Under the pieces are notes generated by a model. It worked only from the letters and a program-made list of their open reading frames with translations, did no database searches and had not been told where the DNA came from. A stretch of 20,814 nucleotides of DNA, taken from IMG/VR virus record IMGVR_UViG_3300032516_004143, positions 1 through 20,814 of that record. The stretch is one strand, 5' to 3'. Source of the DNA: a virus. Both the position numbers and the translations under genes were made by a program. This document shows positions 7,049-20,676 of the stretch, piece by piece; position 1 is the stretch's first letter; each line of letters opens with the position of its first letter.

Positions 7049-7234
7049 TTAGTATGCCCATGAAACAATCCACAGCGTTAATCCAATAACCTCTTCTAAG
7101 GCCATTGGACGAGACAACCACATATCGTGATATTGCATATTCTGTCTCCATGTAAGGGTTATAGCATTCACAACAAACCCTCCAATGTAAACCCAGAAAT
7201 AAAGATGCAGAAACTTTGCCGCCAGTATTTCCAT
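7049..7234 (-). CDS. Small inner-membrane protein, two TM segments (61 aa)
   Basis: Two hydrophobic segments, LYFWVYIGGFVVNAITLTW at about residues 11-29 and VIGLTLWIVSWAY at about 49-61, joined by a polar loop (RQNMQYHDMWLSRPMALEE). The size and topology suit a small phage membrane protein, perhaps holin-like or an exclusion protein, but no family is recognised and no lysis gene adjoins it. ATG 7234 follows AAGGAG by six bases; the frame is open further up but without a site. The PC4-like gene begins ten bases after the stop. Confidence 0.65.
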   Translation of the reverse strand: MEILAAKFLHLYFWVYIGGFVVNAITLTWRQNMQYHDMWLSRPMALEEVIGLTLWIVSWAY

Positions 7235-7364
7235 TTCATTCTCCTTATAATTAAGACCAGCCCCGAAGTCGAAGACTCCGGTTTGGGCTACCACCCCGAA
7301 CGATTTGTAATTCCTATCCCTGGTAGGGGGCTAGAATCTTTGTCGTTCCTAACTGGCTGGTCCC

Positions 7365-7401
7365 TGACTGCCATGGATAAACCTTATCCACATGGCAGTC
7401 A
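7365..7401. repeat. Long hairpin between the 7408-7671 and 7049-7234 genes
   Basis: TGACTGCCATG pairs with CATGGCAGTCA (11 bp). Inside, GATAA pairs with TTATC around an ACC loop, leaving a two-base bulge. It stands about seven bases after the stop of 7408-7671. No T-run follows on either strand, so it may stabilise or process RNA rather than terminate. Confidence 0.6.
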
Positions 7402-7407
7402 AGATCT

Positions 7408-7671
7408 TTATGAGACTGATGCCTCATTTGTATTCGGTGTCAGGACTTCAACCTTGAAAGCTTTGCGGGATTTGCCTTCAACATCAACCCAGGCACCCAC
7501 AATCCGAGCACGGCCATCAAATTCCTTATTGAAGGCCGAATTTGCATCCCGGAATTTCTGTCTCCCGCTGGAAGTTGCGGGCAATCCAAAATATTCCAAG
7601 AGAGACTCAATTGTCTTGGGTTCCGTCTCAAGGAGACGGTAATAATCTTGGGCACTAAATGTGTTGCTCAT
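7408..7671 (-). CDS. Hypothetical protein, possible HTH (87 aa)
   Basis: The N-terminal half (YYRLLETEPKTIESLLEYFG then LPATSSGRQKFRDA) could be a short helix-turn-helix; the second half is beta-like and basic (GRARIVGAWVDVEGKSRKAF). AAAGGAG precedes ATG 7671 in the TCAAAGGAG leader context seen before several single genes here. It follows the 49-aa gene by 20 bases and is followed by a strong hairpin. DNA binding is a guess. A long plus-strand frame across this gene is its shadow. Confidence 0.65.
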   Translation of the reverse strand: MSNTFSAQDYYRLLETEPKTIESLLEYFGLPATSSGRQKFRDANSAFNKEFDGRARIVGAWVDVEGKSRKAFKVEVLTPNTNEASVS

Positions 7672-7691
7672 AGCTTTCTCCTTTGATCTGT

Positions 7692-7841
7692 TTATTTATT
7701 CTGGCCACTATGGCCAACATCCCGAACTTGTTTCTTCCAGGCACTCTTTGGAATGTATTTGGCTTTTCCTGCTTCAACCAATTTTTCTGCCTCTTTATCA
7801 CTAACTCGTGAAATCTTGGCTCCAACTTGAATAGTCTTCAT
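7692..7841 (-). CDS. Small basic protein (49 aa)
   Basis: MKTIQVGAKISRVSDKEAEK followed by LVEAGKAKYIPKSAWKKQVR. The first half reads as strand plus helix; the second half is basic with the KYIPKSxWK string often seen in small phage proteins of unknown function. AAGGAGG lies eight bases before ATG 7841. It begins 19 bases after the 7861-8283 gene and ends 20 bases before the next start, so it is part of the 8283-7408 operon. Convincing as a gene, unknown in role. Confidence 0.75.
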   Translation of the reverse strand: MKTIQVGAKISRVSDKEAEKLVEAGKAKYIPKSAWKKQVRDVGHSGQNK

Positions 7842-7860
7842 TGCCAATCCTCCTTATTTG

Positions 7861-8283
7861 TTATTTGCATGCTGAGAATACATAGTGCCACGTACGGTTC
7901 ATATAGAACGATGCTTCTAGATTTACTACATAATCCCCACTCGAGGCTTCATCTTCTGCCCAACCCTTGATTACAGATGCTAATCCATTCCAGAAGTTTT
8001 TCCTTTCTTCTGGCATATACATATAACCATCTTCGGCATAAGCATCTATGTATTCATCCTTTTCCCCGTCAGCATCAATTGTCATTATGAAGATGTATTC
8101 ATTCCCATGATCCATAGACTCTGGCGGGGTAGCATCCGTAACAGTAATAACCAAGTCTGGCATCTTACCATTATTAAAACTGGGATCTACCAGAGCCTTT
8201 TTGATTATCTCAATAGCACGATCTCCCCAGACCCCAGGCTCAGTATAATAATCTTCTAACTGTTTCTCAACCCTGATTTCCAT
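7861..8283 (-). CDS. Hypothetical acidic protein (140 aa)
   Basis: First gene after the class 1 promoter at 8310-8338. Acidic and aromatic: PDLVITVTDATPPESMDHGN, EYIFIMTIDADGEKDEYIDA, FYMNRTWHYVF. Looks like a compact alpha/beta fold, with no motif that I recognise. The start at 8283 has AAGGGTAGGGAA before it, a weaker ribosome site than usual. Promoter and start are only 27 bases apart, so the 5' leader is very short. Confidence 0.75.
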   Translation of the reverse strand: MEIRVEKQLEDYYTEPGVWGDRAIEIIKKALVDPSFNNGKMPDLVITVTDATPPESMDHGNEYIFIMTIDADGEKDEYIDAYAEDGYMYMPEERKNFWNGLASVIKGWAEDEASSGDYVVNLEASFYMNRTWHYVFSACK

Positions 8284-8309
8284 TTCCCTACCCTTTCAAT
8301 TGACAATAC

Positions 8310-8338
8310 AATATAATATATTGGATTGACAATGTCAA
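8310..8338 (-). promoter_or_regulatory. Class 1 promoter
   Basis: TTGACA at 8338-8333, 17-base spacer, TATATT at 8315-8310, AACTAT upstream, GTATTGTCAATTGAA downstream. It begins five bases from the stop of the gene upstream and drives 8283-7049 and perhaps further. Confidence 0.85.
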
Positions 8339-8342
8339 ATAG

Positions 8343-8564
8343 TTATTGAGACAATAGGGGCATCTTCTTCTTGAATTTCTTAGTCTTTCTAATATCATCT
8401 GTATCTCCTTGATTTCTATTCAAGCGGAAGTATATTATATCCCCATCTGTCTCAAACTCTATATCATGTACAAGACCACAATCACAACAGATAAATTTCA
8501 TCTTACCACCAGGAACCGAATAAAGGTGTCCCTCTTTTGCGGTAATGTACTTTATTTTTGGCAT
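8343..8564 (-). CDS. Small zinc-site protein, CCDCGLVHD type (73 aa)
   Basis: Holds FICCDCGLVHDIEFETDGDI at residues about 24-43 and a following strand YFRLNRNQGDTDDIRK. The CxxC plus His33 make a zinc knuckle, and the CCDCGLVHD string with a downstream FRxxRN is one I associate with a widespread phage hypothetical family. The basic C-terminus (KTKKFKKKM) suggests nucleic acid contact. ATG 8564 lies one base after the upstream stop, with TTGGGGA as ribosome site inside the upstream gene. It is last in the unit that starts near 9824 or above. Confidence 0.7.
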   Translation of the reverse strand: MPKIKYITAKEGHLYSVPGGKMKFICCDCGLVHDIEFETDGDIIYFRLNRNQGDTDDIRKTKKFKKKMPLLSQ

Positions 8565-8565
8565 A

Positions 8566-8955
8566 TTATCCCCAATGAATTACTGCTGCTAGATCCAACC
8601 CAATTGGATTATTTAAGTTACCCTTCACAAACTCATGAAAGCCCCCAAGTTGTATAGCCCCTAGAGACTTAATCACCCCCTCAAATACCTCCCCTTTATC
8701 CAGTAGGAAATCTACAACTACCATCCCGAATGCCTGGTATTTCTCTACTGCGTAACAGGCCTCATACTCTCCCAGGCACTTTATCAAATAGAACCCATCA
8801 TCAGCATCTTCAAATCCCATATCTATCAATTTACTCTTTTCCACAAATACACCTGGGAAATACTTGAGAAACTGATAGCCTCTAGACATATCTAACAGTT
8901 CAGCAATAGCTTCTGGTTCAAATGAGCGCGGCGTACGAGGATCTATCTTGTTCAT
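8566..8955 (-). CDS. Hypothetical protein (129 aa)
   Basis: Unrecognised alpha/beta protein: LDMSRGYQFLKYFPGVFVEK, then a region with GFYLIKCLGEYEACYAVEKY, then VDFLLDKGEVFEGVIKSLGA. Four-base overlap (ATGA) with the YspA-like gene upstream and one-base gap to the next gene show tight coupling. It may work with the YspA-like protein, though only adjacency suggests this. No catalytic motif seen. Confidence 0.7.
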   Translation of the reverse strand: MNKIDPRTPRSFEPEAIAELLDMSRGYQFLKYFPGVFVEKSKLIDMGFEDADDGFYLIKCLGEYEACYAVEKYQAFGMVVVDFLLDKGEVFEGVIKSLGAIQLGGFHEFVKGNLNNPIGLDLAAVIHWG

Positions 8956-9320
8956 AGCTGACTCCTTTTATGATCAAATAACTTGACCCTAAATCCGGCT
9001 TTAGTAGCCCTTTCAGCCATATCCTTTGAACCCTTTGATGTACTCAGACTATCATGAAATACCCAAACTTCATCAGGTTTTCCTTCATCCAGCATCTGTT
9101 GATTTCTAATAGGACCTGCTGCCTTACCATATAACCCCCACTGAGCAGGAAACTTCATTACTGGAATTCCCAATTCATCAGCAACAATCCCTGCTAATCG
9201 GTCAGCACCTTTTGCCTCCCCCTCTATAACAACCTCAATTTCCCCTACACCTTTGATTAGTTCATTTCTAATCATCTTAAAATCCCACCAATTACGATCA
9301 CCACAAATCAAGAGTCTCAT
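8952..9320 (-). CDS. YspA/YpsA-related SLOG-family protein (122 aa)
   Basis: Matches the SLOG Rossmann-like family found in phages (DUF2493/YspA type): CGDRNW at 6-11 after the first strand, EGEAKGADRLA at 33-43 (the GxAxGAD nucleotide-binding loop), WGLYGKAAGPIRNQQM at 61-76, and TSKGSKDMAERATKAGF near the end. Family members are thought to bind nucleotides or ADP-ribose-type ligands; the substrate here is unknown. The full motif series is present and the length is normal. It has four-base ATGA overlaps with the genes on both sides. Confidence 0.85.
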   Translation of the reverse strand: MRLLICGDRNWWDFKMIRNELIKGVGEIEVVIEGEAKGADRLAGIVADELGIPVMKFPAQWGLYGKAAGPIRNQQMLDEGKPDEVWVFHDSLSTSKGSKDMAERATKAGFRVKLFDHKRSQL

Positions 9321-9622
9321 GAGTTATCTCCGAATGTTTCTTTCAACCACTCTTCCCACTCTTCACTATCTTCAATTCCCACTTCCATAACAAGTACCAG
9401 AGCCATCTCCTCAATAGCCATGCCATCAATAGATGGAGTCCCTTCACTGCGCATATCAACCAATTCATTAACCAAATCGAGGAAACCCATACCTGAATAA
9501 TCAGCAGTTAATTCAGTCTCAAGTACCCTTTTAATTTTGAATGCATCTCCATTAGCTACATCTATAACTCTTATTGCTTTTCTCAAGAGTTCTGTGGGCA
9601 CCTCAACTAGTGGTCTATTCAT
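9317..9622 (-). CDS. Hypothetical acidic protein (101 aa)
   Basis: Helical and strongly acidic towards its end (MEVGIEDSEEWEEWLKETFG). The N-terminus (VPTELLRKAIRVIDVANGDA) is amphipathic. No motif recognised. The stop overlaps the start of the YspA-like gene by four bases, and its own start is one base after the stop of the 9624-9824 gene, with CAGGAGGTG as ribosome site. Possibly a partner of the YspA-like protein, by position only. Confidence 0.7.
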   Translation of the reverse strand: MNRPLVEVPTELLRKAIRVIDVANGDAFKIKRVLETELTADYSGMGFLDLVNELVDMRSEGTPSIDGMAIEEMALVLVMEVGIEDSEEWEEWLKETFGDNS

Positions 9623-9623
9623 T

Positions 9624-9824
9624 TCACCTCCTGGGTTCTAGGTTGTCCCACCAACTAGGTTGAACTTTATCTTTCTTCCTAATGCCTCTCTCAAACAGAA
9701 ATAACGGGGTTTTGTTTTCAGTCTTTGGATTCCGCCTCTGTACATCCCTGATATCAAATTCCAATTTACTAGGCAACTTAGTGACTGGAATTGAACTTGG
9801 GTTCCACCTGAATCTCTTAGCCAT
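9624..9824 (-). CDS. Small basic protein (66 aa)
   Basis: MAKRFRWNPSSIPVTKLPSK then FDIRDVQRRNPKTENKTPLF, rich in Arg, Lys and Pro, with little regular structure expected; a nucleic-acid or ribosome-binding peptide is plausible but not shown. ATG 9824 with AAGGGGGTCAAA before it is preferred to the start seven codons earlier, which lies inside the promoter. First gene of the unit driven by the class 1 promoter at 9849-9877. Confidence 0.65.
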   Translation of the reverse strand: MAKRFRWNPSSIPVTKLPSKLEFDIRDVQRRNPKTENKTPLFLFERGIRKKDKVQPSWWDNLEPRR

Positions 9825-9848
9825 TTTGACCCCCTTGATTAACAATAT

Positions 9849-9877
9849 AATATAATCAATAGGATTGCCAAAGTCAA
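9849..9877 (-). promoter_or_regulatory. Class 1 promoter
   Basis: TTGACT at 9877-9872, 17-base spacer, TATATT at 9854-9849, with AACTAT upstream. The -35 box differs at one base from the others. It drives 9824-8343. Confidence 0.8.
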
Positions 9878-9896
9878 ATAGTTAAGGGTCAAGGAG

Positions 9897-10232
9897 TTAA
9901 TCCTTAGTAGCCGTGCATATCAAATTCCTCGGTCCAGTACAAGGAAGATACTGAGTATTAAATGGAGTATTCCTTCCAGTTGGGATATTCGGCAACTTCA
10001 TATTCCAAGGACAGTCATTGGTAGTAATTGACATAATAACATCGTGGACATTATAACCAGTTTCATTTATCACTGCTCCTGAGTAGCAATAATAAGTTCC
10101 ACAACCCAGACAGCTGCTGTACTGATCAGTATGCATTATTTCTATTCTCAGTTGTACCTCTTTGTTTTCTGGGCCAGAAGGGTCTGAGCTGCATCCCATC
10201 AGTAGAAACATGAAGAGCATTATCTTTTTCAT
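9897..10232 (-). CDS. Putative lipoprotein (111 aa)
   Basis: Signal peptide MKKIMLFMFLLMGCSSDPSG with a lipobox ending at Cys14, so a lipoprotein of the cell envelope is likely. The mature part carries six further Cys (SCLGCGTYYCYS, NDCPWN, LPCTGP, LICTA) that could form disulfides outside the cytoplasm, and beta-like repeats. Phage-encoded lipoproteins can block superinfection or act in lysis control; either would be inference. Overlaps the upstream gene by four bases (ATGA). The unit ends about 20 bases before the next promoter. Confidence 0.75.
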   Translation of the reverse strand: MKKIMLFMFLLMGCSSDPSGPENKEVQLRIEIMHTDQYSSCLGCGTYYCYSGAVINETGYNVHDVIMSITTNDCPWNMKLPNIPTGRNTPFNTQYLPCTGPRNLICTATKD

Positions 10233-10525
10233 ATTTCCTCTCCTTCCTGCGAGCCCATCGGTGCGAAAGACTGCAAGATTTCAAGGACCCTTGGGTGATC
10301 GGGATTCTCAGAAATGAATTCAATGATGGCCTCTTTTATTCCCCCATCAAATAGCATCCGCGCGGCCTGGTAGACATCTGAATCATCAATCTTATTTCTT
10401 ATCCCTTCATCAAGCCATTCAATGAATTCTGGTAGATCTATCAAGCTTTCACTTGATTCTAATCTTTCTACCAGATCTCTTATATTGGACACGCTTATTT
10501 TCGGGTCCTGATCCAGCGTTCCCAT
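10229..10525 (-). CDS. Hypothetical acidic protein (98 aa)
   Basis: MGTLDQDPKISVSNIRDLVE then helices with RLESSESLIDLPEFIEWLDE and AARMLFDGGIKEAIIEFISE, an all-helical acidic protein. I chose ATG 10525; AAGGAG lies about eleven bases before it. A longer frame to 10624 would run through the next gene upstream. Its last residues (FAPMGSQEGEEI) are encoded by dispersed element copy 5. Overlaps the lipoprotein gene by four bases. Function unknown. Confidence 0.65.
   Translation of the reverse strand: MGTLDQDPKISVSNIRDLVERLESSESLIDLPEFIEWLDEGIRNKIDDSDVYQAARMLFDGGIKEAIIEFISENPDHPRVLEILQSFAPMGSQEGEEI
10249..10269 (+). repeat. Dispersed element, copy 5
   Basis: GCGAGCCCATCGGTGCGAAA then G, preceded by CTCTCCTTCCT as in copy 4. 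It lies in the 3' end of the 10229-10525 gene, which means either the element was captured into coding sequence or the repeats derive from this gene end. Confidence 0.6.
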
Positions 10526-10539
10526 TTTTATGAGTCTCC

Positions 10540-10770
10540 TTATACAGTTAAAATCCAGTGACGCTTGTTTGAATCCTGATCGCATGGTGTTGGACTTTTC
10601 ATTTTGCCAAACATAGTATCCCATTCTTTCGTGGAATCATGCGTCCATCCAGCCCTAGTACCGGCAGGATTATTGAGTTCCGCAAAGGCGAGGATTTCCT
10701 TTTCAGTATGTTCTTTATCTGCGCAAACGACTATATTGAGAACATGAAACTGTGCTATTTCAATACTCAT
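10540..10770 (-). CDS. Hypothetical protein (76 aa)
   Basis: Starts MSIEIAQFHVLNIVVCADKE at 10770, with AAAGGAAAAG before it; a further-upstream ATG in the frame would lie inside the zinc-knuckle gene. An early hydrophobic strand (FHVLNIVVCA) is followed by a helix (TEKEILAFAELNN) and a Trp-rich polar end (GTRAGWTHDSTKEWDTMFGK). It overlaps the preceding 53-aa gene by 11 bases. No family recognised. Confidence 0.65.
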   Translation of the reverse strand: MSIEIAQFHVLNIVVCADKEHTEKEILAFAELNNPAGTRAGWTHDSTKEWDTMFGKMKSPTPCDQDSNKRHWILTV

Positions 10771-10921
10771 TTTCTTTTCCTTTCTTATTATCACTCTGTT
10801 CCGGAGATTTAGTCTCCGGAACGAAGTAACAAACATGTCCATCTGTCCATTTCATTGGTCTGGGAGGAGTTGAGGCAATCACAATTTGCCCACAACTCCT
10901 ACAGACATATTTTATGGTCAT
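10760..10921 (-). CDS. Small zinc-knuckle protein (53 aa)
   Basis: MTIKYVCRSCGQIVIASTPP has C7-x2-C10, and GHVCYF supplies His29 and Cys31, a plausible CCHC zinc site. The tail is charged (SPEQSDNKKGKENEY). The ATG at 10921 overlaps the TGA of the 10918-11136 gene in the ATGA manner, and the end overlaps the next gene by 11 bases, so it belongs to the operon. It is too short for routine gene callers. Confidence 0.7.
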   Translation of the reverse strand: MTIKYVCRSCGQIVIASTPPRPMKWTDGHVCYFVPETKSPEQSDNKKGKENEY

Positions 10922-11136
10922 GGGGCAACCCACCCCTCTAGAGATGAAGGCATTCCTGCCTTAATATAACAATCAATGCACATAAAATGTCCATTGATTG
11001 GATTGAATGTCCCCTCTTCCTGCCGCACATAATCCTCGGGGGAAAGCACCATCTCCTCAGCCATTGAGATATATTCATCTAATTCACTGGGTTTCTTATT
11101 GCACCCAACACAAATGATCATATCATCAGTTACCAT
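10918..11136 (-). CDS. Small four-cysteine zinc-site protein (72 aa)
   Basis: CVGC at residues 9-12 and CIDC at 53-56 flank an acidic helix (SELDEYISMAEEMVLSPEDY); together they make a split zinc ribbon. CIDCYIK recalls CNDCYIG in the 2817-3032 protein. GGGAGGT stands six bases before ATG 11136, inside the end of the transglycosylase gene (seven-base overlap). Role unknown; small zinc proteins of this kind often bind host enzymes or nucleic acid. Confidence 0.75.
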   Translation of the reverse strand: MVTDDMIICVGCNKKPSELDEYISMAEEMVLSPEDYVRQEEGTFNPINGHFMCIDCYIKAGMPSSLEGWVAP

Positions 11137-11801
11137 GAACTTACCTCCCGTTTATCTCTGTAATAGAGGTATGCTCCAATTACTTTCGGAGCAAAGTCAA
11201 ATGTCTCATCTCTAGTGAAATTGACCGCAAACGCATTATTTGTAGAATGCACTTTCAATTTACGAATCATTTCAGATTCTCCACCATTATAAGCGAAGAG
11301 AACCTTGACAGGGTCTCCATTGAATAATTCATGAAGAGCCTTTATGTGTCTTATTGCTCCACGTGTAGATTTAAGGAAATCCATCCTATCATCTAAGCCA
11401 TTTGTATTTTTCAGACCAAATCTACCAGCAGTTGAGCTTATCTGCTGCCAGAAACCTATTGCATTACTAACTGAACGGGCTGAGGGTTCCCAATTCGATT
11501 CTACAGTGGGGAGTTCGGCATATAATCTGGACATCTCGGGAGAGAATCCAGCTTCCTCAAACATCTTGACTGCTTGAGGATAATAAAAGTTTCTTGCCCG
11601 GTCATTTATTCTCCAAGTACTATCCTTGTACTGTTCATAGAATTCAATGACCCTTGACTCACTCAGGAATTCAGGTTCTGCGTTGACTATTTCGGGGGTC
11701 TTAATTACTGTGCTTCCCGCGGGATTTGCTGTTGAAGCAATAAGAAAGAAAGCTGCGTAAAGTAGTCCAGCTCCACCCACGATTGATAATTTATTAAGCA
11801 T
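11130..11801 (-). CDS. Membrane-anchored lytic transglycosylase, SLT family (223 aa)
   Basis: Cleaves peptidoglycan glycan strands. Residues about 8-25 (VGGAGLLYAAFFLIASTA) are a signal anchor or signal peptide, placing the enzyme in the periplasm. The SLT domain covers about 90-215: PTVESNW with the catalytic Glu101, SNAIGFWQQIS at 113-122, TAGRFGLKN, a DDRMDFLKSTRGAIRHI block, and LFAYNGGESEM at 168-178, the standard order for MltD-type enzymes. The ribosome site GGAGGAAA precedes ATG 11801. In a phage it may act in lysis or in DNA entry; no holin is adjacent. The full motif set suggests an active enzyme. Confidence 0.9.
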   Translation of the reverse strand: MLNKLSIVGGAGLLYAAFFLIASTANPAGSTVIKTPEIVNAEPEFLSESRVIEFYEQYKDSTWRINDRARNFYYPQAVKMFEEAGFSPEMSRLYAELPTVESNWEPSARSVSNAIGFWQQISSTAGRFGLKNTNGLDDRMDFLKSTRGAIRHIKALHELFNGDPVKVLFAYNGGESEMIRKLKVHSTNNAFAVNFTRDETFDFAPKVIGAYLYYRDKREVSSW

Positions 11802-11824
11802 TGTAGATTTCCTCCGGTAGTTTG

Positions 11825-12169
11825 TCAGGACTGATCCTGCCCTCCACCAAACAATTCAGCATTTGGATCTATTCCAGCTATTTCCAATTTTGCAAGTAAG
11901 GTGTCGAACATGGCTGTTATTGCATCAATAGTCTCTAACAAAAGATCAGAATTTTGAATAATCTCATTATTTAGATGCAGCAACTCCATCAGTTGTTTTG
12001 AGTCAATAATTACATCTCCTTTCAGTTGTGGATTTTGTTCTAATATAGCATCATACATTTTCCTTGTAATGACTTGATTTGCCTGAGAAGCCTCAATAGA
12101 CTGCTTCTTATATGGATGAACAGTAGTCCTAGTTCTGAGGCTGAATTGTTTAATCTCATTTAATGTCAT
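11825..12169 (-). CDS. Hypothetical protein (114 aa)
   Basis: Long helices with heptad-like spacing (SKQLMELLHLNNEIIQNSDL then LLETIDAITAMFDTLLAKLE), suggesting a coiled-coil oligomer, ending in a Gly/Gln tail (FGGGQDQS). A polar basic N-terminus (RTRTTVHPYKKQS). ATG 12169 is two bases before the stop of the upstream gene; its ribosome site is AAGGAGTAAC. Could be structural or a scaffold for the neighbouring transglycosylase, but only position hints at this. Confidence 0.7.
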   Translation of the reverse strand: MTLNEIKQFSLRTRTTVHPYKKQSIEASQANQVITRKMYDAILEQNPQLKGDVIIDSKQLMELLHLNNEIIQNSDLLLETIDAITAMFDTLLAKLEIAGIDPNAELFGGGQDQS

Positions 12170-12170
12170 G

Positions 12171-12581
12171 TTACTCCTTATTAGTGGACAAACACATCTT
12201 TTCGAGCTCCCCGATATTTATCCCCTTCATAGAGATACAATCAAGTAACTCTTTTTGCATGGAATGTATAATGACTAAATCATCACGGTCTATCTCCCCT
12301 ACAGTTTTCTCAACTAGAATATCATATTCTAGAAGGTAGATTCTCTTCAGCAATGAATCATCAACTTTAAGGAACAGCTTATTTAGGAGAGATAACTTCT
12401 CCTCTATTTCCGGAGATAAAGGTCTCACGGAAACCATTTCAGAGGTTATTATAACCTCTTTCTTAGAAGAGTAGAATAAAGAATCTTCACTTTTCCTTAT
12501 CTTGCGGGTCTTTGAAAACTGCCTTATGTTGACAGATCCAGCAAACTTTTCGAAGCCTTGAAGGGAATCTAGTATGCCCAT
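12171..12581 (-). CDS. Hypothetical protein (136 aa)
   Basis: First gene of the unit driven by the promoter at 12626-12654. MGILDSLQGFEKFAGSVNIR, a basic Ser/Lys-rich segment (FSKTRKIRKSEDSLFYSSKK), then a long helical half (LSPEIEEKLSLLNKLFLKVD and LLKRIYLLEYDILVEKTVGE). TTGGAG lies seven bases before ATG 12581; the nine-codon longer form would begin at a position without a site. Together with the coiled-coil protein and the transglycosylase it makes a three-gene group. Not recognised. Confidence 0.7.
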   Translation of the reverse strand: MGILDSLQGFEKFAGSVNIRQFSKTRKIRKSEDSLFYSSKKEVIITSEMVSVRPLSPEIEEKLSLLNKLFLKVDDSLLKRIYLLEYDILVEKTVGEIDRDDLVIIHSMQKELLDCISMKGINIGELEKMCLSTNKE

Positions 12582-12625
12582 AATAACTCCAATTGTTTGA
12601 CCTGGCACCCATTTGATTGCAATTT

Positions 12626-12654
12626 AATATAATCAATAGGATTATCAATGTCAA
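12626..12654 (-). promoter_or_regulatory. Class 1 promoter
   Basis: TTGACA at 12654-12649, 17-base spacer, TATATT at 12631-12626, AACTAT upstream, AAATTGCAATCAAAT downstream. It drives 12581-11130 and perhaps on to the lipoprotein at 9897. Confidence 0.85.
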
Positions 12655-12677
12655 ATAGTTTTCTGGGGTTTTGAACC

Positions 12678-13347: not shown

Positions 13348-13401
13348 AACTTCTCCTTTGAATGGTTAGTGGTTGATTAACCCATTGATTTAGGGTACTA
13401 C

Positions 13402-13418
13402 AATATAATAAACCGTGG
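13402..13418 (-). promoter_or_regulatory. Class 2 promoter-like site
   Basis: Minus strand CCACGG, TTTAT, TATATT, followed by GTAGTA. No -35 match lies 17 bases upstream. Same box-to-box spacing (5) as the sites at 17559, 19675 and 19725. It precedes the winged-helix gene by 55 bases. Confidence 0.7.
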
Positions 13419-13421
13419 TGA

Positions 13422-13682
13422 CTACTTCCTATAAAATTTGGTCCTTAGTCCTACTAATGTAAGGTAGATTTCTGTTACACGTTTAATGGTACGCCCGTCG
13501 CCTCTGAATAGATAATCAAGTTTACTTCCCCAATGACAAGCATGTTCTGGACCTAATATACGCCAGAACAATTCACAAGTCATAACTGCCAAATAAGGAT
13601 GAGAACTTTTTCCTGCTTCTGTTATCACCAATCTTTCTAATTCCCCTACAAGTGTATCAACTCTATCACCTCTTGTGGGCAT
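13422..13682 (-). CDS. Hypothetical protein (86 aa)
   Basis: Last gene of the ubiquitin-like operon. All helical, with MPTRGDRVDTLVGELERLVI, then a Cys/His/Trp-rich middle (MTCELFWRILGPEHACHWGS) and a basic end (DGRTIKRVTEIYLTLVGLRT). The two Cys and nearby His could bind metal. Its ATG overlaps the preceding TAA by one base (TAATG). Whether it works with the conjugation genes is unknown, but operon coupling makes it a candidate partner. Confidence 0.65.
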   Translation of the reverse strand: MPTRGDRVDTLVGELERLVITEAGKSSHPYLAVMTCELFWRILGPEHACHWGSKLDYLFRGDGRTIKRVTEIYLTLVGLRTKFYRK

Positions 13683-13945
13683 TAATTCATCCTCGATTTA
13701 ACAACGGTTAGTAGCTGGCTCTTCTGTTGTTCTGTAAATTGTTCTCCAATCTCAGGGAAGACCAAATCATCATCCATTACATGAACGTGTATATTTCCAT
13801 CTAGGGTTCTAACAATCATCTCGTCAGTTGATACATAGAGATTTGCTAGAAGGCCCCATACCTCCAATGGTGAAGGTACATCAGGATATACAATCCATTC
13901 ACCAGTAAGTTTTTTCTTCGCCTCTACCCTATACACTTTACTCAC
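13682..13945 (-). CDS. Hypothetical protein (87 aa)
   Basis: MSKVYRVEAKKKLTGEWIVY then PDVPSPLEVWGLLANLYVST and LDGNIHVHVMDDDLVFPEIG: beta-rich first two thirds and a helical end (TEQQKSQLLTVVKSRMN). Overlaps the 13942-14178 gene by four bases (ATGA) and the next gene by one base. No family recognised. Part of the ubiquitin-like operon. Confidence 0.65.
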   Translation of the reverse strand: MSKVYRVEAKKKLTGEWIVYPDVPSPLEVWGLLANLYVSTDEMIVRTLDGNIHVHVMDDDLVFPEIGEQFTEQQKSQLLTVVKSRMN

Positions 13946-14178
13946 CCCGTGGCTCCCTTATTGTATTTAGCCGACAATCTGTCGTAAGTTTCTACCGCAA
14001 TCTTTTCTGCCTCTTCAACTGTTTGCCCATATACCTTAACAGCAATTTGTGTCTGGCCCTTCGAATTCATTGCGAGCTCAACGGATGATTGGGCAAGATT
14101 TGCAATGATTTTTTCACTTGAGCTATTAACACCGTTAATGATAGTTTTTTCGATTGTGCCTGATACCATTGTTTCCAT
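13942..14178 (-). CDS. Hypothetical protein (78 aa) directly after the E2-like gene
   Basis: N-terminal amphipathic helix (GTIEKTIINGVNSSSEKIIA), a strand (TQIAVKVYGQ), then a long helix (TVEEAEKIAVETYDRLSAKY) ending NKGATG. Its size and mixed alpha/beta content are compatible with a second small modifier or a chaperone, but the strand order does not clearly fit a beta-grasp and the terminal GATG lacks a diglycine. Ribosome site AAGGAGGTCAAG before ATG 14178; ten bases after the E2-like stop. Confidence 0.6.
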   Translation of the reverse strand: METMVSGTIEKTIINGVNSSSEKIIANLAQSSVELAMNSKGQTQIAVKVYGQTVEEAEKIAVETYDRLSAKYNKGATG

Positions 14179-14188
14179 CTTGACCTCC

Positions 14189-15625
14189 TTATGTTGGTAG
14201 TGCTTCGGCTTCCCTAGTCATATCTGCTACTGCAGTTGACAGTGAAACCTCCATCTGTGTCAGATCTAAAGAAGGTGTTTTATTTACCTTAAGTAATTTG
14301 CCCTTCATTACGATCCCATTGATTACCAATCGAGGTAAATCGCCAGGAGTCATCAATTTTCCCTGCTCAGAGTGATGACGTACCTTATCATTCCAATTCG
14401 CTAATGTCTGATCAGGGTAACAGGTATTTATATCATAACTCTTCAGATATGATATAAATAAATCAGCTATGGATAAAAAATCTCTCTGAAGTAGAGCCGT
14501 GCTAAAAGGCCTTAACCAATTACCAAGACATGGAGAAGTACCATTAATATGAGGATGAATATCATCGGGACAATTAGTTGGTGCAGGTCCTAATCTATCA
14601 AATTCAATTCTCAAAACATCCGAATTACTAGTAGTAATTGAACAATCAAACTTACCAATAGGTATACCCCCTATATCTAATTCAGGGGTCCTAACTATAA
14701 TGCGTCCATTATTTATCCGTGTCCCTGGATATTTATCTAGGACCCTTTTCCAGTTTTCAGTAAGTGCTGCATAGGTATGCTCAGTTTCTCCCCCACCTAA
14801 TTGTGTTCTTGCCCACAGCTCAAGCTTTGAGAGGTCAACTATTAACCTCAAGGCTTCTTCCTGCAGCCTCTTGACTTTGAACATATCAACCTTCTTATTA
14901 GTAAACCCTATCATAGTCTTGAAGAATCTCTCAAGTTCTTTACTTCTAATATCCCTAAAGAAGTTTCCAATATAATCCTGAATCGACTTTTTACCTACAT
15001 CCCTAGTTAACAACATCCCCAAAGTCAATAAGTACTGGAAAGTCAACCAACTTGATTCACTACTCACATCCCCCAACATAATAGGTAGGTTGAAATAATT
15101 CGCCCCGGGAATAGTTAATACTATAGGGAACTCATTATCCTGGTAGTAATGGATTCCATATATACTATCTTTCCAGGAACTAAACTCAGGTGTATCATTG
15201 AGTTTTATTTCAAAGACTGGGTCAGTATATAACCTAAGGGGCTCATTAGTAGGAATTGATGACCTGAAAGATGCCATTTCATGTGGAACTGGATGCCAAT
15301 TAAAATCAACAGAGATCCTTCTAGAATAATCTGCAGCTTCTCTATCATTCCCAACACCTCCTACAGTAATAATAAACAGATCTTTATATTTGCTTGCAGC
15401 CTCTAGGTACGAGGCTGGAGGCAATCTTAGATCACAACATTTATCAATCCAAATAATTCTGATACTTTCAGGAGGAACCTTTGCAATAAGAGCATAATCC
15501 TCCCTAGCCTTGATTATGTAATCAGGAATATCCCCTGTAGTATAATTCTTCACACCCACAACATAAATATTATTAGTTGTAGGAGATGATAATATCTTCT
15601 CAAGCCTGGTCGGGGTCGGGAACAT
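14189..15625 (-). CDS. Protein with E2 (UBC)-like active-site region (478 aa)
   Basis: Probable conjugating enzyme of the ubiquitin-like system. Residues about 305-400 follow the E2 layout: strands RIIVRTPELDIGGIPIG, KFDCSITTSNSDVLRIEFDR, a Pro-rich turn LGPAPTNCPDD, then HPHI at 357-360, INGTSPCLGNW with Cys366, and helices RPFSTALLQRDFLSIADLFI. Canonical E2s have HPN, then about ten residues later a catalytic Cys in a CL string, as here. The first 300 residues are unrecognised; NIYVVGVKNYTT and DLFIITVGGVGNDREAADY suggest an alpha/beta region. A normal UBC domain is about 150 residues, so this is a large fusion. Start: GAGGAGG six bases before ATG, overlapping the E1-like gene by 26 bases. 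Confidence 0.7.
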   Translation of the reverse strand: MFPTPTRLEKILSSPTTNNIYVVGVKNYTTGDIPDYIIKAREDYALIAKVPPESIRIIWIDKCCDLRLPPASYLEAASKYKDLFIITVGGVGNDREAADYSRRISVDFNWHPVPHEMASFRSSIPTNEPLRLYTDPVFEIKLNDTPEFSSWKDSIYGIHYYQDNEFPIVLTIPGANYFNLPIMLGDVSSESSWLTFQYLLTLGMLLTRDVGKKSIQDYIGNFFRDIRSKELERFFKTMIGFTNKKVDMFKVKRLQEEALRLIVDLSKLELWARTQLGGGETEHTYAALTENWKRVLDKYPGTRINNGRIIVRTPELDIGGIPIGKFDCSITTSNSDVLRIEFDRLGPAPTNCPDDIHPHINGTSPCLGNWLRPFSTALLQRDFLSIADLFISYLKSYDINTCYPDQTLANWNDKVRHHSEQGKLMTPGDLPRLVINGIVMKGKLLKVNKTPSLDLTQMEVSLSTAVADMTREAEALPT

Positions 15626-16367
15626 CTTCGGCCTCCTCTTCTTCAGTTATTTCTACTTCCACTCCCTCTTCATTGAAGTGATAGAACTGGCGATTGAAAT
15701 GATCATAAACCATTTTGAATGCCACAGGCTTTTCAATCAGAATATTTCTTATGGTCTGGACTATCAATCCCCCTACCATGAACATCATATCAGCAATGCC
15801 CGCTGCTGTACATGATAAAGGAGTAGCCTCTGCATCAGAGAACAATGAATTAGAATAGGCCTTTGTTTGGGTTTGGTCACCCATATCTACTGTATAGATT
15901 TCAAGAACCTGTCCTGCCAATCTTCCATCAATCAAGACATTAACCAAAGACTTACTACAATGTTCAAACAATTCTTTCCTGGACTGCATATTGTCCATAG
16001 CAGACACAACAATACCCCCCATTTGAAGAAAAGATGTATCATTTTGCCAATAATTCTCAAGACACATAATTTCATTATCACCCGATCTACCTAGTCTGTC
16101 CATCAAAGCAAGAACCTTTGGTTGCCCAATATCACCACTATAGAACATTTGATTAGCTACATTATGAAGTTCTACTTTATCTGGATCAATGAGGAACATC
16201 TGCTTAATACCAATACGGGTTAGGCCCTCAGCAGTAACTGAACCTATTCCACCACAACCTACTATTATAATCAATGGATTACAATGTGTATCTGGATTAT
16301 ACCAATCCCTTTGGCGAACAAAGGGATCATTACTCACCGTCTCCGTAGTCGATATTGATTCTTCCAT
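15600..16367 (-). CDS. ThiF/E1-like adenylating enzyme (255 aa)
   Basis: Adenylates the C-terminus of a ubiquitin-like protein using ATP. IIIVGCGGIGSVTAEGLTRI (33-52) is the GxGGxG nucleotide loop; FLIDPDKVELHN (58-69) supplies the acidic residues; DIGQPKV (79-85) and VVSAMDNMQSRKEL (120-133) are the usual later motifs; PLSCTAAG (183-190) holds Cys186, the candidate thioester Cys. The family NxxRQ Arg is Asn here (NVANQ). Very acidic tail (ITEEEEAEDVPDPDQ). ATG 16367 has TTGGAG six bases before it and is preferred to the TTG at 16379. Overlaps the JAB gene by 38 bases and the E2-like gene by 26. Confidence 0.9.
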   Translation of the reverse strand: MEESISTTETVSNDPFVRQRDWYNPDTHCNPLIIIVGCGGIGSVTAEGLTRIGIKQMFLIDPDKVELHNVANQMFYSGDIGQPKVLALMDRLGRSGDNEIMCLENYWQNDTSFLQMGGIVVSAMDNMQSRKELFEHCSKSLVNVLIDGRLAGQVLEIYTVDMGDQTQTKAYSNSLFSDAEATPLSCTAAGIADMMFMVGGLIVQTIRNILIEKPVAFKMVYDHFNRQFYHFNEEGVEVEITEEEEAEDVPDPDQA

Positions 16368-17253
16368 GGGTTTCTCCAAAAGTTTCTTTTAAGGGGCCGT
16401 ACAAATCCCCCTTGGTAAAGGGATCATAAGCACCGCCATCAGATATAGCCCAACGGACTCTGAATTCATTAAAGGTAGAACCTGTCATCAAAGCATTTAG
16501 TGCTGCCTTTTTAAGCCAAATAGGTAGCTTTCTAAATACCTGGTAGTCTTTACCAAAGAATTCAGACATCAAGGTGTCCTGTGTAATAAGTGCATCTAGA
16601 TCAGGAACACCTTTATTTCTCTTGAGGAACTTCTTAAGAGGCTTGGGTAGTGAGAGCTTCCTTTCATTGTTCAGATAATGGAAAAGGCTTTCCTGAGTGG
16701 ATTTGCTACCATTCAATACAGATGTCTGAACTGCAACAGGTTTGCGGAACTTTACCTTTGAAAGGACCTCTGAAGCCATACTCATCTGTGTCTTCTGTGA
16801 CAAAGTAAAATCAGGTCTTAACTCAACACCAATATGACAAGCAACAGGCCTGAAGTAGTTGACCCGACAAATACATTCTCCAGCGAAGTTGACTACTATG
16901 GAGATTAAATAATCAACAGCCTTACCCCAGTCATCTATATGTTCTTGATCGGTGCCAGATACAAAGGCTTTTGAAGACCCATGAGAATGCCACCATACCC
17001 TATATTGCTCAGGCTTCTTTGACGAAGCAATATATGGGGCAAGATCTTCCATTTTGAAGTCTACATCACCTGTGCCAGCTGTTTGTTCAATAAGGATCAA
17101 ACTATGAATCAATCCTCTATTAGGATCATAAAGCCCATATCCCCCGATCTCCATAGGACTATTGGTATCGGGGGATATGGCTAGTTTTGCCCAATGAAAC
17201 AGCTTAGCATAATCTTCTGGGGTGATGTTAATCACTACAGAAGAATTAGCCAT
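16330..17253 (-). CDS. JAB/JAMM metalloprotease domain protein (307 aa)
   Basis: Likely isopeptidase or processing protease for the ubiquitin-like protein. The JAMM signature is complete: Glu35 in PMEIGGYG, then VWWHSHGSSKAFVSGTDQEH with His89, His91, Ser99 and Asp102 (HxH-x7-S-x2-D), which bind zinc and catalysis. The domain occupies about residues 5-160. The last 150 residues are unrecognised and basic (LSLPKPLKKFLKRNKGVPDL). The start at 17253 overlaps the TGA of the Ubl gene (TGATG), a sign of coupled translation. Also overlaps the E1-like gene. JAB proteins can trim Ubl precursors or remove Ubls from targets; which applies is not shown. Confidence 0.9.
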   Translation of the reverse strand: MANSSVVINITPEDYAKLFHWAKLAISPDTNSPMEIGGYGLYDPNRGLIHSLILIEQTAGTGDVDFKMEDLAPYIASSKKPEQYRVWWHSHGSSKAFVSGTDQEHIDDWGKAVDYLISIVVNFAGECICRVNYFRPVACHIGVELRPDFTLSQKTQMSMASEVLSKVKFRKPVAVQTSVLNGSKSTQESLFHYLNNERKLSLPKPLKKFLKRNKGVPDLDALITQDTLMSEFFGKDYQVFRKLPIWLKKAALNALMTGSTFNEFRVRWAISDGGAYDPFTKGDLYGPLKETFGETHGRINIDYGDGE

Positions 17254-17519
17254 CAATTCCCTGCCTTTCCTTTGGGCATTGCCACGATATTGTCATTCGG
17301 CTGAATTTGAGCCGAATTTTCTACCCGATCGGGCCCAACACAAAGGATATAGGTTGAAATGCTATGTTTCTGGGCTAGCTGTCCATAGGTCGTCCCAGGT
17401 GTAACTTTAACCGGTTTTGTTGCTTGTCCAAGAATTGTCAACTTGACACCGAAGACCTTCTTAGGGACTACTTTCGGAGTTGACTTTGTTGAAGTCGCTT
17501 TCTTCACTGGTTTATTCAT
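17253..17519 (-). CDS. Ubiquitin-like beta-grasp protein, ThiS/MoaD-type (88 aa)
   Basis: Probable modifier of the conjugation operon. After a Lys-rich, likely flexible N-terminus (residues 1-22), a beta-grasp pattern follows: strand FGVKLTILGQ, strand KPVKVTPG, helix TTYGQLAQKHSI, strand TYILCVGPD, and DRVENSAQIQPNDNIVAMPK ending GKAGN. The VxVxPGTT-helix and the NDxIxxxP end match ThiS/MoaD-type proteins. The terminus is AGN, not GG; loss of the last Asn would leave a single Gly. MNK at 17519 is chosen because GGAAGAAGAA and the class 2 site lie upstream; a longer frame would cross the promoter. First gene of the operon. Confidence 0.8.
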   Translation of the reverse strand: MNKPVKKATSTKSTPKVVPKKVFGVKLTILGQATKPVKVTPGTTYGQLAQKHSISTYILCVGPDRVENSAQIQPNDNIVAMPKGKAGN

Positions 17520-17558
17520 TTCTTCTTCCTTTCTATGGTGTTGATTTGATTGAAAGAC

Positions 17559-17575
17559 AATATAATATACTGTGG
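17559..17575 (-). promoter_or_regulatory. Class 2 promoter-like site before the Ubl operon
   Basis: Minus strand CCACAG, TATAT, TATATT, then GTCTTTC. No TTGACA lies 17 bases upstream. It would start transcription about 35 bases before the Ubl ATG. Confidence 0.7.
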
Positions 17576-17652: not shown

Positions 17653-18969
17653 TTAACCTCCTTTATGTATGATATCTGTCTCAGTCTTATCAGGGCGCAG
17701 CCTAACAAAACGGGGGAACCTGAGACTATATCCTCCCGAATCATTAATTGTAACTCTGTCAAACTTGACTTCAATGAGGGTGCCAAGTAGAGATCTCCTA
17801 ATATTCCAAAGATCAGCCCTTTGACTATCTGAGAAACCCCCACCCACCCTTACCTCAAAACCCGCATTTCCAATAGGAGTATAAACTGGAAGTTCTACAA
17901 CTATTGCTCCCAACAAGCCTTTATACTTCCCTTCTCCTTCCTGAAACCCAATAATCTTAAGATCCAGAGTATCAGTAGGCTTCATTTTCAACCAGGCTTT
18001 ATGTCTCTTGAAATAATAAGGAGCATTAGGATCCTTCAGCATTGCCCCTTCATAGCCTTTCTCGAGGAATTCATTATAAATGATCTGAGCATCCTCCCAA
18101 CTCTTGGTCTCCATACTATCAATAAGTTCGAGATTGTTACCTACATAGGAAACCAATAGGTTTTCCAACCAGGAACGTCTTTGACTGAATGACAGATTAA
18201 CTATCTTTGACCCTTTAGGGTAATTATCCATGGAAAACCCATCAAACACAGTGAGCAGGGTATCACTAGTGTCTACATTGTATTTTCGTCTCACCTGACT
18301 CATTGTACTCTGAAATGACCCCCTACCTACCAATTCTCCATCAAGAATAAAGTCTCCAGGGATTTCAGCAATCTCAGAGGCAATCTGGGGGTAATTTTCA
18401 AAGGTATGCCCACGCCTAGACCAGAGAGTTACTTTATCCTCTGACTTGACAACGAAACAACGTACACCGTCCAGTTTGGGTTCTATAATGCAAGGGAACG
18501 TAGGTTCTACTCCGTCTTCAATCTTCTTGGCTTTCATTACTTCAAATGTAGGGATGAAACCATCCCCATAAACATCTAACAGGATTTGAACACCAACCCC
18601 TACACCTAAATCCCTATCAAGGATCTTGAGGTATAAATCCGCCTCTTTGGGGTGTGCCCTATTTATGAAGTTAGACACTACTGCATCAGCATCTGCTCCA
18701 CGCCAGGCTCCACCCCTTAATCCATCAAGAATCTCCCTGAACATAGGCCATCCAACTGTACCTGCTTCATTGGGATTTGGTTTGCCAGAGGGGGTTTTAA
18801 TCCAATAACGGTAGAAGGGGTTATAGGTGTAAAAGAAAATTTCTTGGAGAAAGGCATCCGTTTTTGCTGCACCAAGTATAACCTTCTTTTCAATGGGGGA
18901 AGAAGTAGACTTGACTTTTTCCAAGATTTCGATCTGCCGCTTCAAAAATGAAGGGGAAATTTCATTCAT
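17653..18969 (-). CDS. ATP-dependent DNA ligase (438 aa)
   Basis: Joins nicks in duplex DNA, acting in replication and repair. The nucleotidyltransferase motifs appear in order: motif I EPKLDGVR at 163-170 with the adenylated Lys165, WSRRGHTF at 183-190 (motif Ia region), DGELVGRG at 210-217 (III), YEGAMLKD at 306-313 (IV), AWLKMKP at 325-331 (V), then an OB-fold C-terminus with KVKF-like VEVKFDRV. The N-terminal 150 residues form the extra DNA-binding domain seen in medium-sized viral and archaeal ligases. ATG 18969 overlaps the preceding TGA (ATGA). All key residues are present, so it should be active. It supports a phage-type replication module. Confidence 0.95.
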   Translation of the reverse strand: MNEISPSFLKRQIEILEKVKSTSSPIEKKVILGAAKTDAFLQEIFFYTYNPFYRYWIKTPSGKPNPNEAGTVGWPMFREILDGLRGGAWRGADADAVVSNFINRAHPKEADLYLKILDRDLGVGVGVQILLDVYGDGFIPTFEVMKAKKIEDGVEPTFPCIIEPKLDGVRCFVVKSEDKVTLWSRRGHTFENYPQIASEIAEIPGDFILDGELVGRGSFQSTMSQVRRKYNVDTSDTLLTVFDGFSMDNYPKGSKIVNLSFSQRRSWLENLLVSYVGNNLELIDSMETKSWEDAQIIYNEFLEKGYEGAMLKDPNAPYYFKRHKAWLKMKPTDTLDLKIIGFQEGEGKYKGLLGAIVVELPVYTPIGNAGFEVRVGGGFSDSQRADLWNIRRSLLGTLIEVKFDRVTINDSGGYSLRFPRFVRLRPDKTETDIIHKGG

Positions 18970-19634: not shown

Positions 19635-19674
19635 AGCATTTCTCCTTTGAATGGTTTGATTTGAATGGCAATAC

Positions 19675-19691
19675 AATATAATAAACTATGG
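19675..19691 (-). promoter_or_regulatory. Class 2 promoter-like site before the ligase cluster
   Basis: Minus strand CCATAG, TTTAT, TATATT, then GTATTGCC. No -35 match at 17 bases. Confidence 0.7.
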
Positions 19692-19724
19692 CCTCAATTA
19701 GGCCCCAGTTGTAGTTGATACTAC

Positions 19725-19741
19725 AATTTAATAATCTATGG
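19725..19741 (-). promoter_or_regulatory. Second class 2-like site
   Basis: Minus strand CCATAG, ATTAT, TAAATT, then GTAGTATC, 50 bp upstream of the previous site and with the same spacing. TTGTAG and CTACAA (19709-19726) form a six-bp inverted repeat touching it, a possible operator. Confidence 0.55.
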
Positions 19742-19758
19742 AAACACAATACTTTCTT

Positions 19759-19779
19759 GCGAGCCTATCGGATCGAAGG
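19759..19779 (+). repeat. Dispersed element, copy 6
   Basis: GCGAGCCTATCGGATCGAAG then G, preceded by TTTCTT. It lies between the two class 2 sites and the initiator gene. Confidence 0.55.
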
Positions 19780-19862
19780 ATCCAGGGATTAAGAAATTAT
19801 GATAGAGGGTTACAAGTAGGGTCCACAGTCTTATTAATTATTATCAAATTGCCAACCAATTC

Positions 19863-19895
19863 AGACTACAGTATAAATCCTACATGCTGTAGTCT
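19863..19895. promoter_or_regulatory. Inverted repeat before the initiator-like gene
   Basis: AGACTACAG (19863-19871) and CTGTAGTCT (19887-19895), perfect 9-bp arms with a 15-base spacer, ending 16 bases before ATG 19912. It could be an operator or an RNA hairpin that limits translation of the initiator. TATAAA inside the spacer may be part of the plus-strand promoter. Confidence 0.6.
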
Positions 19896-19911
19896 TTATT
19901 TCTTCTTGCCT

Positions 19912-20676
19912 ATGATAAAAATTGACGATTCCATAATATCCCATTTTGATGAAATGACTAGAGATGACTTCAGAACTCTACTCATTATTAGTAGATATAT
20001 GACTGAGGGAACTTGCATTCCATTTGAAAAGCTAAAACATTTCTGGTCTAATGATACCAATGCCACTATTACATCCATCAATAGCATGGTAGATAAGTTA
20101 GGTTGGCGTTTCTGGGTGGATGGTAAAACTGGTGAATGGTTTATTGAGGACACTTTTCTAAAAAGAGTACTGAAGGTCGAGTTCTGCGATTCTTCTTTTG
20201 AATCAGGCTCAGCAGTATCTACTACAAATAAATTGACAGTATTACCCCCTAAAGGGGGTAATACTATAGATGTATCTATAGGGGGCACTGAAGGGTGGGA
20301 GTCGAAGGGAGAATCCTTATTGGGGCCCCACGCTTTGGTAGAGGTTCTAGAAGCAATGATCTCTAGTAAGAAATCTACTTCCCTTTCTTCAATGACCAAT
20401 ATCGTAAATCATTTTCTAGCCAAAAAGAAAGCTATAGATCCCTTACTAGTTATCGACAAAAGGGAAAGAGGCAAAAACTTCGGTAATGCAAAGTATCTCA
20501 CTAACAAATACCTCTCTATAGATGAACAAACTTGGCTAAAAGCCATTGATTTCTTCTTTAATGACCCCTTCTGGTCTCAACACTTCACAAGTCTTATATT
20601 TCTTGACAAACATCTTCAAAAATTCCTAGTAAACAAACCGCGCAGAGCAAGTACTAAGTATAAGGTAGTATCATGA
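19912..20676 (+). CDS. Replication-initiator-like protein (254 aa)
   Basis: The first plus-strand gene, divergent from the rest. N-terminal winged-helix-like part: FDEMTRDDFRTLLIISRYMT, then ATITSINSMVDKLGWRFWVD. Central linker (TVLPPKGGNTIDVSIGGTEG) is Gly/Pro/Thr rich. C-terminal part: SIDEQTWLKAIDFFFNDPFW then SQHFTSLIFLDKHLQKFL, recalling the AIDFxxxDPFW ending of phage replisome organisers of the O/DnaD kind. ATG 19912 is preferred: the 58 residues before it in the frame cross regulatory repeats and look non-coding. The ribosome site is weak. Two strong palindromes lie in the linker coding region. Initiator assignment is moderate; a general winged-helix regulator is the alternative. Confidence 0.55.
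   Translation: MIKIDDSIISHFDEMTRDDFRTLLIISRYMTEGTCIPFEKLKHFWSNDTNATITSINSMVDKLGWRFWVDGKTGEWFIEDTFLKRVLKVEFCDSSFESGSAVSTTNKLTVLPPKGGNTIDVSIGGTEGWESKGESLLGPHALVEVLEAMISSKKSTSLSSMTNIVNHFLAKKKAIDPLLVIDKRERGKNFGNAKYLTNKYLSIDEQTWLKAIDFFFNDPFWSQHFTSLIFLDKHLQKFLVNKPRRASTKYKVVS
20238..20281. other. Candidate replication origin inside the initiator gene
   Basis: Two perfect palindromic sequences overlap by two bases: AGTATTACCCCCT, AA, AGGGGGTAATACT (20238-20265) and CTATAGAT, GT, ATCTATAG (20264-20281). They sit in the low-complexity linker of an initiator-like protein, where lambdoid phages carry their origin within gene O. GGGGCCCC follows near 20323. Strictly repeated iterons are not seen, so an operator is also possible. 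Confidence 0.4.

Follow-up and report, generated by a model that had tools for sequence, protein, structure and literature searches.

Does a bacterial virus carry a ubiquitin-like protein conjugation pathway of its own, and what would it be used for? The question is raised by an operon on the IMG/VR viral record IMGVR_UViG_3300032516_004143, the whole of which (20,814 bp; hereafter the window) was analysed. At positions 13422-17519 of the minus strand lie seven tightly packed genes, the first four of which overlap and encode, in this order, a ubiquitin-like protein (Ubl), a JAB protease, an E1 and an E2-like protein. Ubl conjugation in bacteria is known as a host defence. The gene set, its coupling, its motifs, its family membership and its conservation among other phages were observed directly, and from these we infer every catalytic step, the type of bond, the targets and the purpose; taken together, the operon probably encodes a reversible ubiquitin-like conjugation pathway belonging to the phage and working during phage DNA replication. 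The features on which this reading depends are as follows.

17253-17519, minus strand: Ubl, a predicted beta-grasp modifier of 88 amino acids (aa) with a Lys-rich N-terminal tail and the C-terminus ...KGKAGN
16330-17253, minus strand: JAB/JAMM metalloprotease of 307 aa, from motif and profile matches
16948-16989, minus strand: JAMM motif HSHGSSKAFVSGTD, H89-x-H91-x7-S99-x2-D102 (residues 89-102), from alignment
15600-16379, minus strand: E1/ThiF adenylating enzyme with a single adenylation domain, starting at TTG 16379 or ATG 16367
15810-15812, minus strand: codon of E1 Cys190 (Cys186 counted from the ATG), invariant in 14/14 relatives
14189-15625, minus strand: E2-like protein of 478 aa, with an N-terminal region, long helices and a C-terminal UBC-like domain
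14381-14713, minus strand: UBC-like catalytic domain, about residues 305-415, from the domain alignment and from comparison of a model of relative L163 with E2/UBC structures
14528-14557, minus strand: E2 active-site segment HPHINGTSPC, an HPN-like motif and Cys366, from the domain alignment

The open reading frame map of the window places these four genes at the position, in the order and on the strand given by the original prediction, which had been made from the sequence alone. The Ubl gene (ATG 17519, stop 17253) overlaps the ATG of the JAB gene at 17253, the end of the JAB gene (17253-16330) overlaps the start of the E1 gene at either candidate start codon, and the E1 gene (stop 15600) overlaps the E2-like gene (ATG 15625, stop 14189) by 26 nt.

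The window E1 (259 aa) possesses one ThiF domain (Pfam ThiF, 1.3e-25, 90.4 bits versus a cut-off of 28.1) and is matched at 6.7e-41 by a hidden Markov model (HMM) of the E1 from the equivalent cassettes of crAss-like phages, and the best solved-structure match of its family profile is UBA5 (4.6e-21). Both the GxGGxG motif and the candidate cysteine that had been proposed for this enzyme are present, the former as the nucleotide-binding motif GCGGIG and the latter as Cys190, the predicted thioester cysteine. The canonical adenylation residues (D/N/Q/K/D) are invariant over alignments of nine and fourteen relatives.

The window JAB, predicted to be the enzyme of both Ubl maturation and deconjugation, carries the complete HxH-x7-S-x2-D motif ascribed to it and a conserved Glu35, such that the full set of JAMM metal and catalytic residues is present. 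An HMM of the crAss-cassette JAB matches it at 4.3e-11, and the JAB family profile matches PfJAMM1 (2.3e-5), AMSH and CSN5. Separately, in relative L118 the JAB gene is split precisely at the codons of the metal-binding HSH by a group I intron at positions 1677-1931 (Rfam RF00028, 58.9 bits, 2.7e-14); such an intron also occurs in L110.

For the Ubl, the beta-grasp assignment is supported through the family profile, an alignment with viral relatives that matches the SAMP2 structures 5lda (3.5e-7) and 2l32 (2.5e-6) end to end (positions 1-68), and the Ubl of relative L124 clears the Pfam ThiS cut-off (28.4 versus 22.5). Aligned viral Ubls end in GGN, KGN or AGN, with GGN or AGN in L124 and L133, QGG in L161 and KGG followed by a tail in L163. 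Tandem poly-Ubl genes with KG-N junctions, resembling polyubiquitin precursors, are found in phages L115 (8781-9557) and L118 (3261-3674). Tandem KG-N repeats and a tail after KGG mark a modifier that a protease sets free, and the operon encodes a JAMM protease; the KGKAGN end of the window Ubl fits a predicted cleavage before the last Asn. In the crAss-type Ubl (L020 1742-2419 and relatives), Gly90 is invariant (68/68), precedes a long variable tail and is a candidate JAB cleavage site.

The E2-like protein is unrecognised by the Pfam, PHROG and NCBIfam libraries. The HPH...C segment reported for it, with Cys366, was located at residues 357-368 (HPHINGTSPCLG; form HPH-x6-C-L-G, with C366 as the catalytic candidate), and the domain encoded by the matching gene in relatives contains HPHISDSGIPCLG (L124), HPHILPDGSPCWG (L161), HPHIQDGLPCLG (L163) and HPHVNGGNGEACWG (L115), with NPHIxxxxCLG as the active-site motif across one large clade of E2-like relatives. 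An HMM of the E2 domain built from seven relatives, with the window excluded, picked out residues 324-412 of the window protein (2.6e-7 in a set of 2,320 proteins) with the motif in register, and P-H..C-x-G is invariant in 30/30 aligned E2 domains. In L124, the spacing from the second His to the Cys is the same as the HPN-to-Cys spacing of classical E2s. The AlphaFold2 model of the compact 224-aa relative L163 (predicted local distance difference test score (pLDDT) 78, core blocks >90) has the topology helix, five-strand meander, active-site loop and two helices, and when compared using VIA-align, E2, RWD and UEV folds fill nearly all of the top 50 rows, bacterial CdnG-E2 and Cap2 among them. 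A UBC-like fold is predicted for the E2 family through this model of L163, the full-length window model being too poor for use. The protein had also been described as a much larger E2, which holds relative to the E2 of bacterial Bil operons and fails within its own family (224-892 aa), where its length is ordinary.

Cys-rich zinc-binding regions are fused to several of the E2-like proteins (L115 7281-8612, L124 1680-4175, L153 5344-7131 and L010 6214-8892), those of jumbo phages among them; these could be built-in E3-like modules with a role in target recruitment. The window E2-like protein has no such region, and its N-terminal 300 residues or the products of the three genes downstream of it may take over this function.

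Based on these assignments, the JAB would cut the Gly-Asn end of the Ubl behind its Gly, and the E1 would use ATP to adenylate the C-terminal glycine thus exposed and hold it as a thioester on Cys190. The Ubl would then pass to Cys366 of the E2, with the HPH motif in place of the classical HPN, and the E2 would join it to target lysines, using either its N-terminal region or a partner, for instance one of the three downstream proteins; the JAB may be able to remove it again.

Many bacterial viruses, gut crAss-like phages included, appear to carry relatives of the cassette as a regular component, and these relatives seem to have been largely overlooked. Direct DNA searches with the window and tblastn with its E2-like protein returned no match in phages, and exact-peptide scans of IMG/VR found two loci using the window E1 and no relatives using the E2, the JAB, the ligase or a Xanthomonas phage E1. 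The nine-sequence E1 alignment was too diverse to be used as a scan query. An alignment restricted to crAss-like E1s identified 79 IMG/VR loci, the neighbours of which were scored with four HMMs; the loci possess an E1 (79), a JAB (75), a gene in the E2 position (74) and a Ubl (73) in the order Ubl-E2-JAB-E1, and the exceptions to the full set are mostly loci cut at contig ends. The isolate phages carrying the cassette include Bacteroides phages crAss001 and DAC15 and Flavobacterium phage FpV4. A degenerate E1 pattern, HN-x-[AP]-NQM[FY], yielded 46 further viral loci, 41 of them with true E1s. Both the JAB and E2 motifs are present in 30/41 of these, and most of the others are cut at the locus edge, belong to the intron-split pair or possess a variant motif (L138). 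Xanthomonas and Erwinia jumbo phages encode a Ubl ending in SGG, an 892-aa E2 and an E1, with no JAMM motif within 20 kb of the cassette. The different gene order noted for the window (Ubl-JAB-E1-E2) is real, most relatives having Ubl-E2-JAB-E1.

Copies that look cellular were found on two contigs of metagenome-assembled genomes (MAGs), a proteobacterial one of 1.7 Mb and one from Rubrobacter, where a transposase adjoins the set. E2-like, JAB, E1 and Ubl genes are also grouped on a contig assigned by binning to an Aenigmatarchaeota archaeon (L170 2-3058); its E2-like protein apparently has the domain twice, with the catalytic Cys missing from one copy. In two related phages, a reverse-transcriptase gene adjoins the Ubl cassette (L002 11064-12209 and L155 8715-10076), and the phage of L124 has a second, different E1 beside a second JAB-like gene and a von Willebrand-like gene (L152 17015-18921).

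The setting of the cassette bears on its role. Where neighbours are known, the equivalents sit among replication genes: between the primase and the uracil-DNA glycosylase/polymerase genes in crAss-like phages and, in jumbo phages, close to the genes of DNA ligase and topoisomerases. A cassette this widespread, embedded in the replication modules of unrelated phages, argues for a built-in phage function at the replication stage over a patchy accessory weapon. In the window, the remainder of the operon and its surroundings comprise the following features.

13942-14178, minus strand: gene of a 78-aa protein, co-transcribed, with no significant Pfam, PHROG or NCBIfam match
13682-13945, minus strand: gene of an 87-aa protein, co-translated, with no significant match in the same libraries
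13422-13682, minus strand: gene of an 86-aa protein, co-translated, likewise with no significant match
17551-17575, minus strand: promoter-like repeat CCACAGTATATTATATTGTCTTTCA upstream of the Ubl gene, from repeat families D3/D5 and alignment of the copies
13394-13418, minus strand: the next copy of this repeat, right after the operon, from the repeat search and copy alignment
17653-18969, minus strand: ATP-dependent DNA ligase, neighbour of the operon, from Pfam and phrog_114 (1.6e-100)

The three small genes, coupled to the E2-like gene and each other via ribosome-binding sites or start/stop overlap, are present as the three unknown co-translated genes of the original prediction, and no relatives of them were found among the collected cassette loci. 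The ligase said to adjoin the operon is confirmed; the "initiator" placed beside it (19738-20676) matches no family in Pfam, PHROG or NCBIfam. Four similar copies of the promoter-like element (core TTATATTGT with CCA-AG upstream) were found around the operon by repeat search and copy alignment, two of which lie near 19667-19741, upstream of neighbouring genes. This repeat is common to the operon and the neighbouring genes. We infer that the operon is transcribed as a single unit controlled by the phage itself, in one class with its neighbours on the ligase side. The operon and the replication genes around it appear to be expressed together, so the most likely targets are proteins of the phage or the host that act while phage DNA is being replicated.

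Several results weigh against this reading. By itself, the window Ubl is nearly invisible, with SAMP2 as its sole match (E=0.16) and scores below the Pfam cut-offs, and it ends in AGN, not GG. The window JAB scores under the cut-off of Pfam Prok-JAB (2.9e-4, 21.1 bits versus 25), the branch of the window in the E1 tree is long and its place is not resolved, and the window possesses no recognisable E3 or proteasome-like partner. For the E2, the full-length AlphaFold2 model (with 25 relatives) reached a pLDDT of 50 and gave no useful structural matches, and Foldseek of the L163 model found nothing significant in the PDB (best E 0.097); in a viral library it had one significant match, an uncharacterised phage protein. 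The best VIA-align match of the L163 model, 2h2y (Z 7.5, 3.3 A over 108 residues), has a Z below 8 that is middling by itself, and the E2 claim therefore rests on the profile, the invariant His and Cys, the spacing and the uniform structure list together.

Among the alternatives, the one that survives best keeps the same chemistry and assigns it to counter-defence, with a host immune or restriction protein tagged and inactivated. The cassette is phage-borne, the three lineage-specific downstream genes could set target choice and relatives have lineage-specific zinc-finger E2 fusions, all of which would suit such a role; the set is nonetheless kept across very different phages and hosts as an ordered block of the replication module, whereas anti-defence genes are typically patchy, and counter-defence is considered unlikely.

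It is improbable, to a slightly greater degree, that the same chemistry serves as a Bil-like weapon against rival phages in superinfection exclusion. Bil operons (BilABCD, ISG15-like) also combine a Ubl, E2, JAB and E1 with a predicted reversible conjugation and defend bacteria (PMC11354881), and the copies on the Rubrobacter and proteobacterial contigs would fit such a use. Bil is defined by its double Ubl, the CEHH motif of its E2 and an E1 that has an inactive and an active adenylation domain (PMC11354881), whereas the window has a single Ubl, HPH upstream of the Cys and a single-domain E1, and is phage-borne among replication genes. At the CEHH positions (Glu, His and His at +6, +8 and +13 from the Cys), the window has R, F and L. 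Close kinship to Bil is not supported, and identity with Bil is ruled out by the tested features (no CEHH, single Ubl, one ThiF domain in the E1). The promoter repeat in common with neighbouring genes is a further point against this use, and the conservation within replication modules suggests use by the phage itself.

Less probable again is that the large protein is no E2, with the E1 and JAB acting on the Ubl alone, for instance to conjugate it to itself or to polymerise it, and with the HPH..C protein as a structural partner. The failed full-length model and the non-significant Foldseek search of L163 are in its favour, as is the comparison with crAss-like phages: hhalign of the crAss-type and window-type "E2" profiles returned a probability of 3.8%, leaving the two unlinked, and homology between them is consequently not claimed. 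The assignment of the crAss-type protein as an "E2" is offered hypothetically, from position and motif. Against this alternative stand the invariant His and Cys, both in the 30 aligned window-type domains and in the crAss-type proteins (His182 and Cys198 in 68/68 and 69/69, with Gly200 also invariant), the L124 spacing and the VIA-align matches of L163 to many E2s.

Cofactor or tRNA sulfur transfer of the ThiS/MoaD and ThiF/MoeB type, in which the Ubl would carry sulfur and the JAB only mature it, is highly improbable: the Ubl family is nearest to ThiS/SAMP2 by sequence and the E1 domain to ThiF/MoeB/UBA5, yet the operon has no sulfurtransferase, rhodanese, MoaE, ThiG or tRNA-thiolation gene, a UBC-like protein with an invariant Cys travels with the set, and paired CxxC zinc motifs of the cofactor type occur in 0/139 family E1s (the window E1 has no CxxC at all). 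The MoeB/ThiF class of sulfur-carrier activators is ruled out for the window E1 by this lack and by bits far under the equivalog cut-offs (ThiF 72.1 versus 159; MoeB 58.4 versus 266). A Ubl-E1-E2-JAB conjugation operon on a phage, as first proposed, is well supported; none of the outcomes named as refuting it was seen, the Ubl family being beta-grasp by its profile, the E2 family UBC-like in its model and the E1 free of zinc cysteines of the cofactor type.

Other known systems resemble parts of this phage conjugation operon. The E1 adenylation domain of Bub (BubCD E1-E2, PDB 9ea4) is related by profile (4.6e-12), the one similarity to BubCD that was seen; BubCD is a single 458-aa chain, whereas the window E1 and E2 are separate proteins. 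PRTRC (Iyer class 6d) shares the four component types (Ubl, JAB, ThiF and E2). Scores against NCBIfam PRTRC_A (14.5 versus 101.8 bits) and PRTRC_ThiF (42.3 versus 144.75) are weak and well below cut-offs, which rules out identity with PRTRC, and no ParB was found; further, the classical His ahead of the active site is missing from the E2s of class 6d (PMC1779556) and present in the window E2-like protein. Among archaeal systems, the window-family Ubl is closest to SAMP2 and the JAB to JAMM1 and Rpn11-like proteins, although SAMP2-JAMM1 and the Caldiarchaeum E1/E2/RING systems are cellular, with canonical UBC E2s. A zinc-finger partner is not present in the window, while other phage E2s carry one.

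In crAss001-type phages, gp76 and gp77 are annotated merely as thiamine biosynthesis (ThiF) and "metalloprotease domain"; their profiles match the window E1 and JAB, and the cassette layout is of the same type. The putative Ubl and E2 of these phages have no detectable sequence homology to those of the window (window Ubl versus the crAss Ubl HMM, 0.47). The Ubl-JAB pairs already known from phages are tail assembly genes of the lambda type, described without an E1 or E2 (PMC1779556). A literature search of partial coverage, and hence weak evidence of novelty, found no description of a phage-borne Ubl-E1-E2-JAB set, and Yutin 2021 does not mention ubiquitin, ThiF or JAB.

There is a good chance that the cassette is a widespread, largely unrecognised viral pathway. 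If so, viruses of bacteria would be tagging proteins in the service of their own replication, and the "thiamine biosynthesis / metalloprotease" block of crAss001-type gut phages would be explained. The broader proposal, tentative and slightly on the doubtful side of even, is that several unrelated tailed-phage lineages run complete ubiquitin-like signalling (poly-Ubl precursors, JAMM, E1 and E2s, at times with zinc fingers as possible E3s) as a conserved element of replicating their genomes, a viral branch possibly ancestral to, or exchanged with, the cellular ones. An E2 family without a Pfam or NCBIfam model, with an HPN-like active site, poly-Ubl and zinc-finger partners, bears on the origin of ubiquitin signalling, and isolates with hosts exist (crAss001, DAC15 and FpV4), making the question open to direct test.

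Elsewhere in the window, a second, different promoter repeat of 60 nt (TTGACA-type) has six copies in the left part (1571-12660), and a 51-bp unit is perfectly duplicated in tandem at 2503-2604. The product of the gene at 11130-11801 is a lytic transglycosylase-like protein that has a hydrophobic segment at its N-terminus and resembles phage tail/endolysin proteins (phrog_2013, 2.2e-14).

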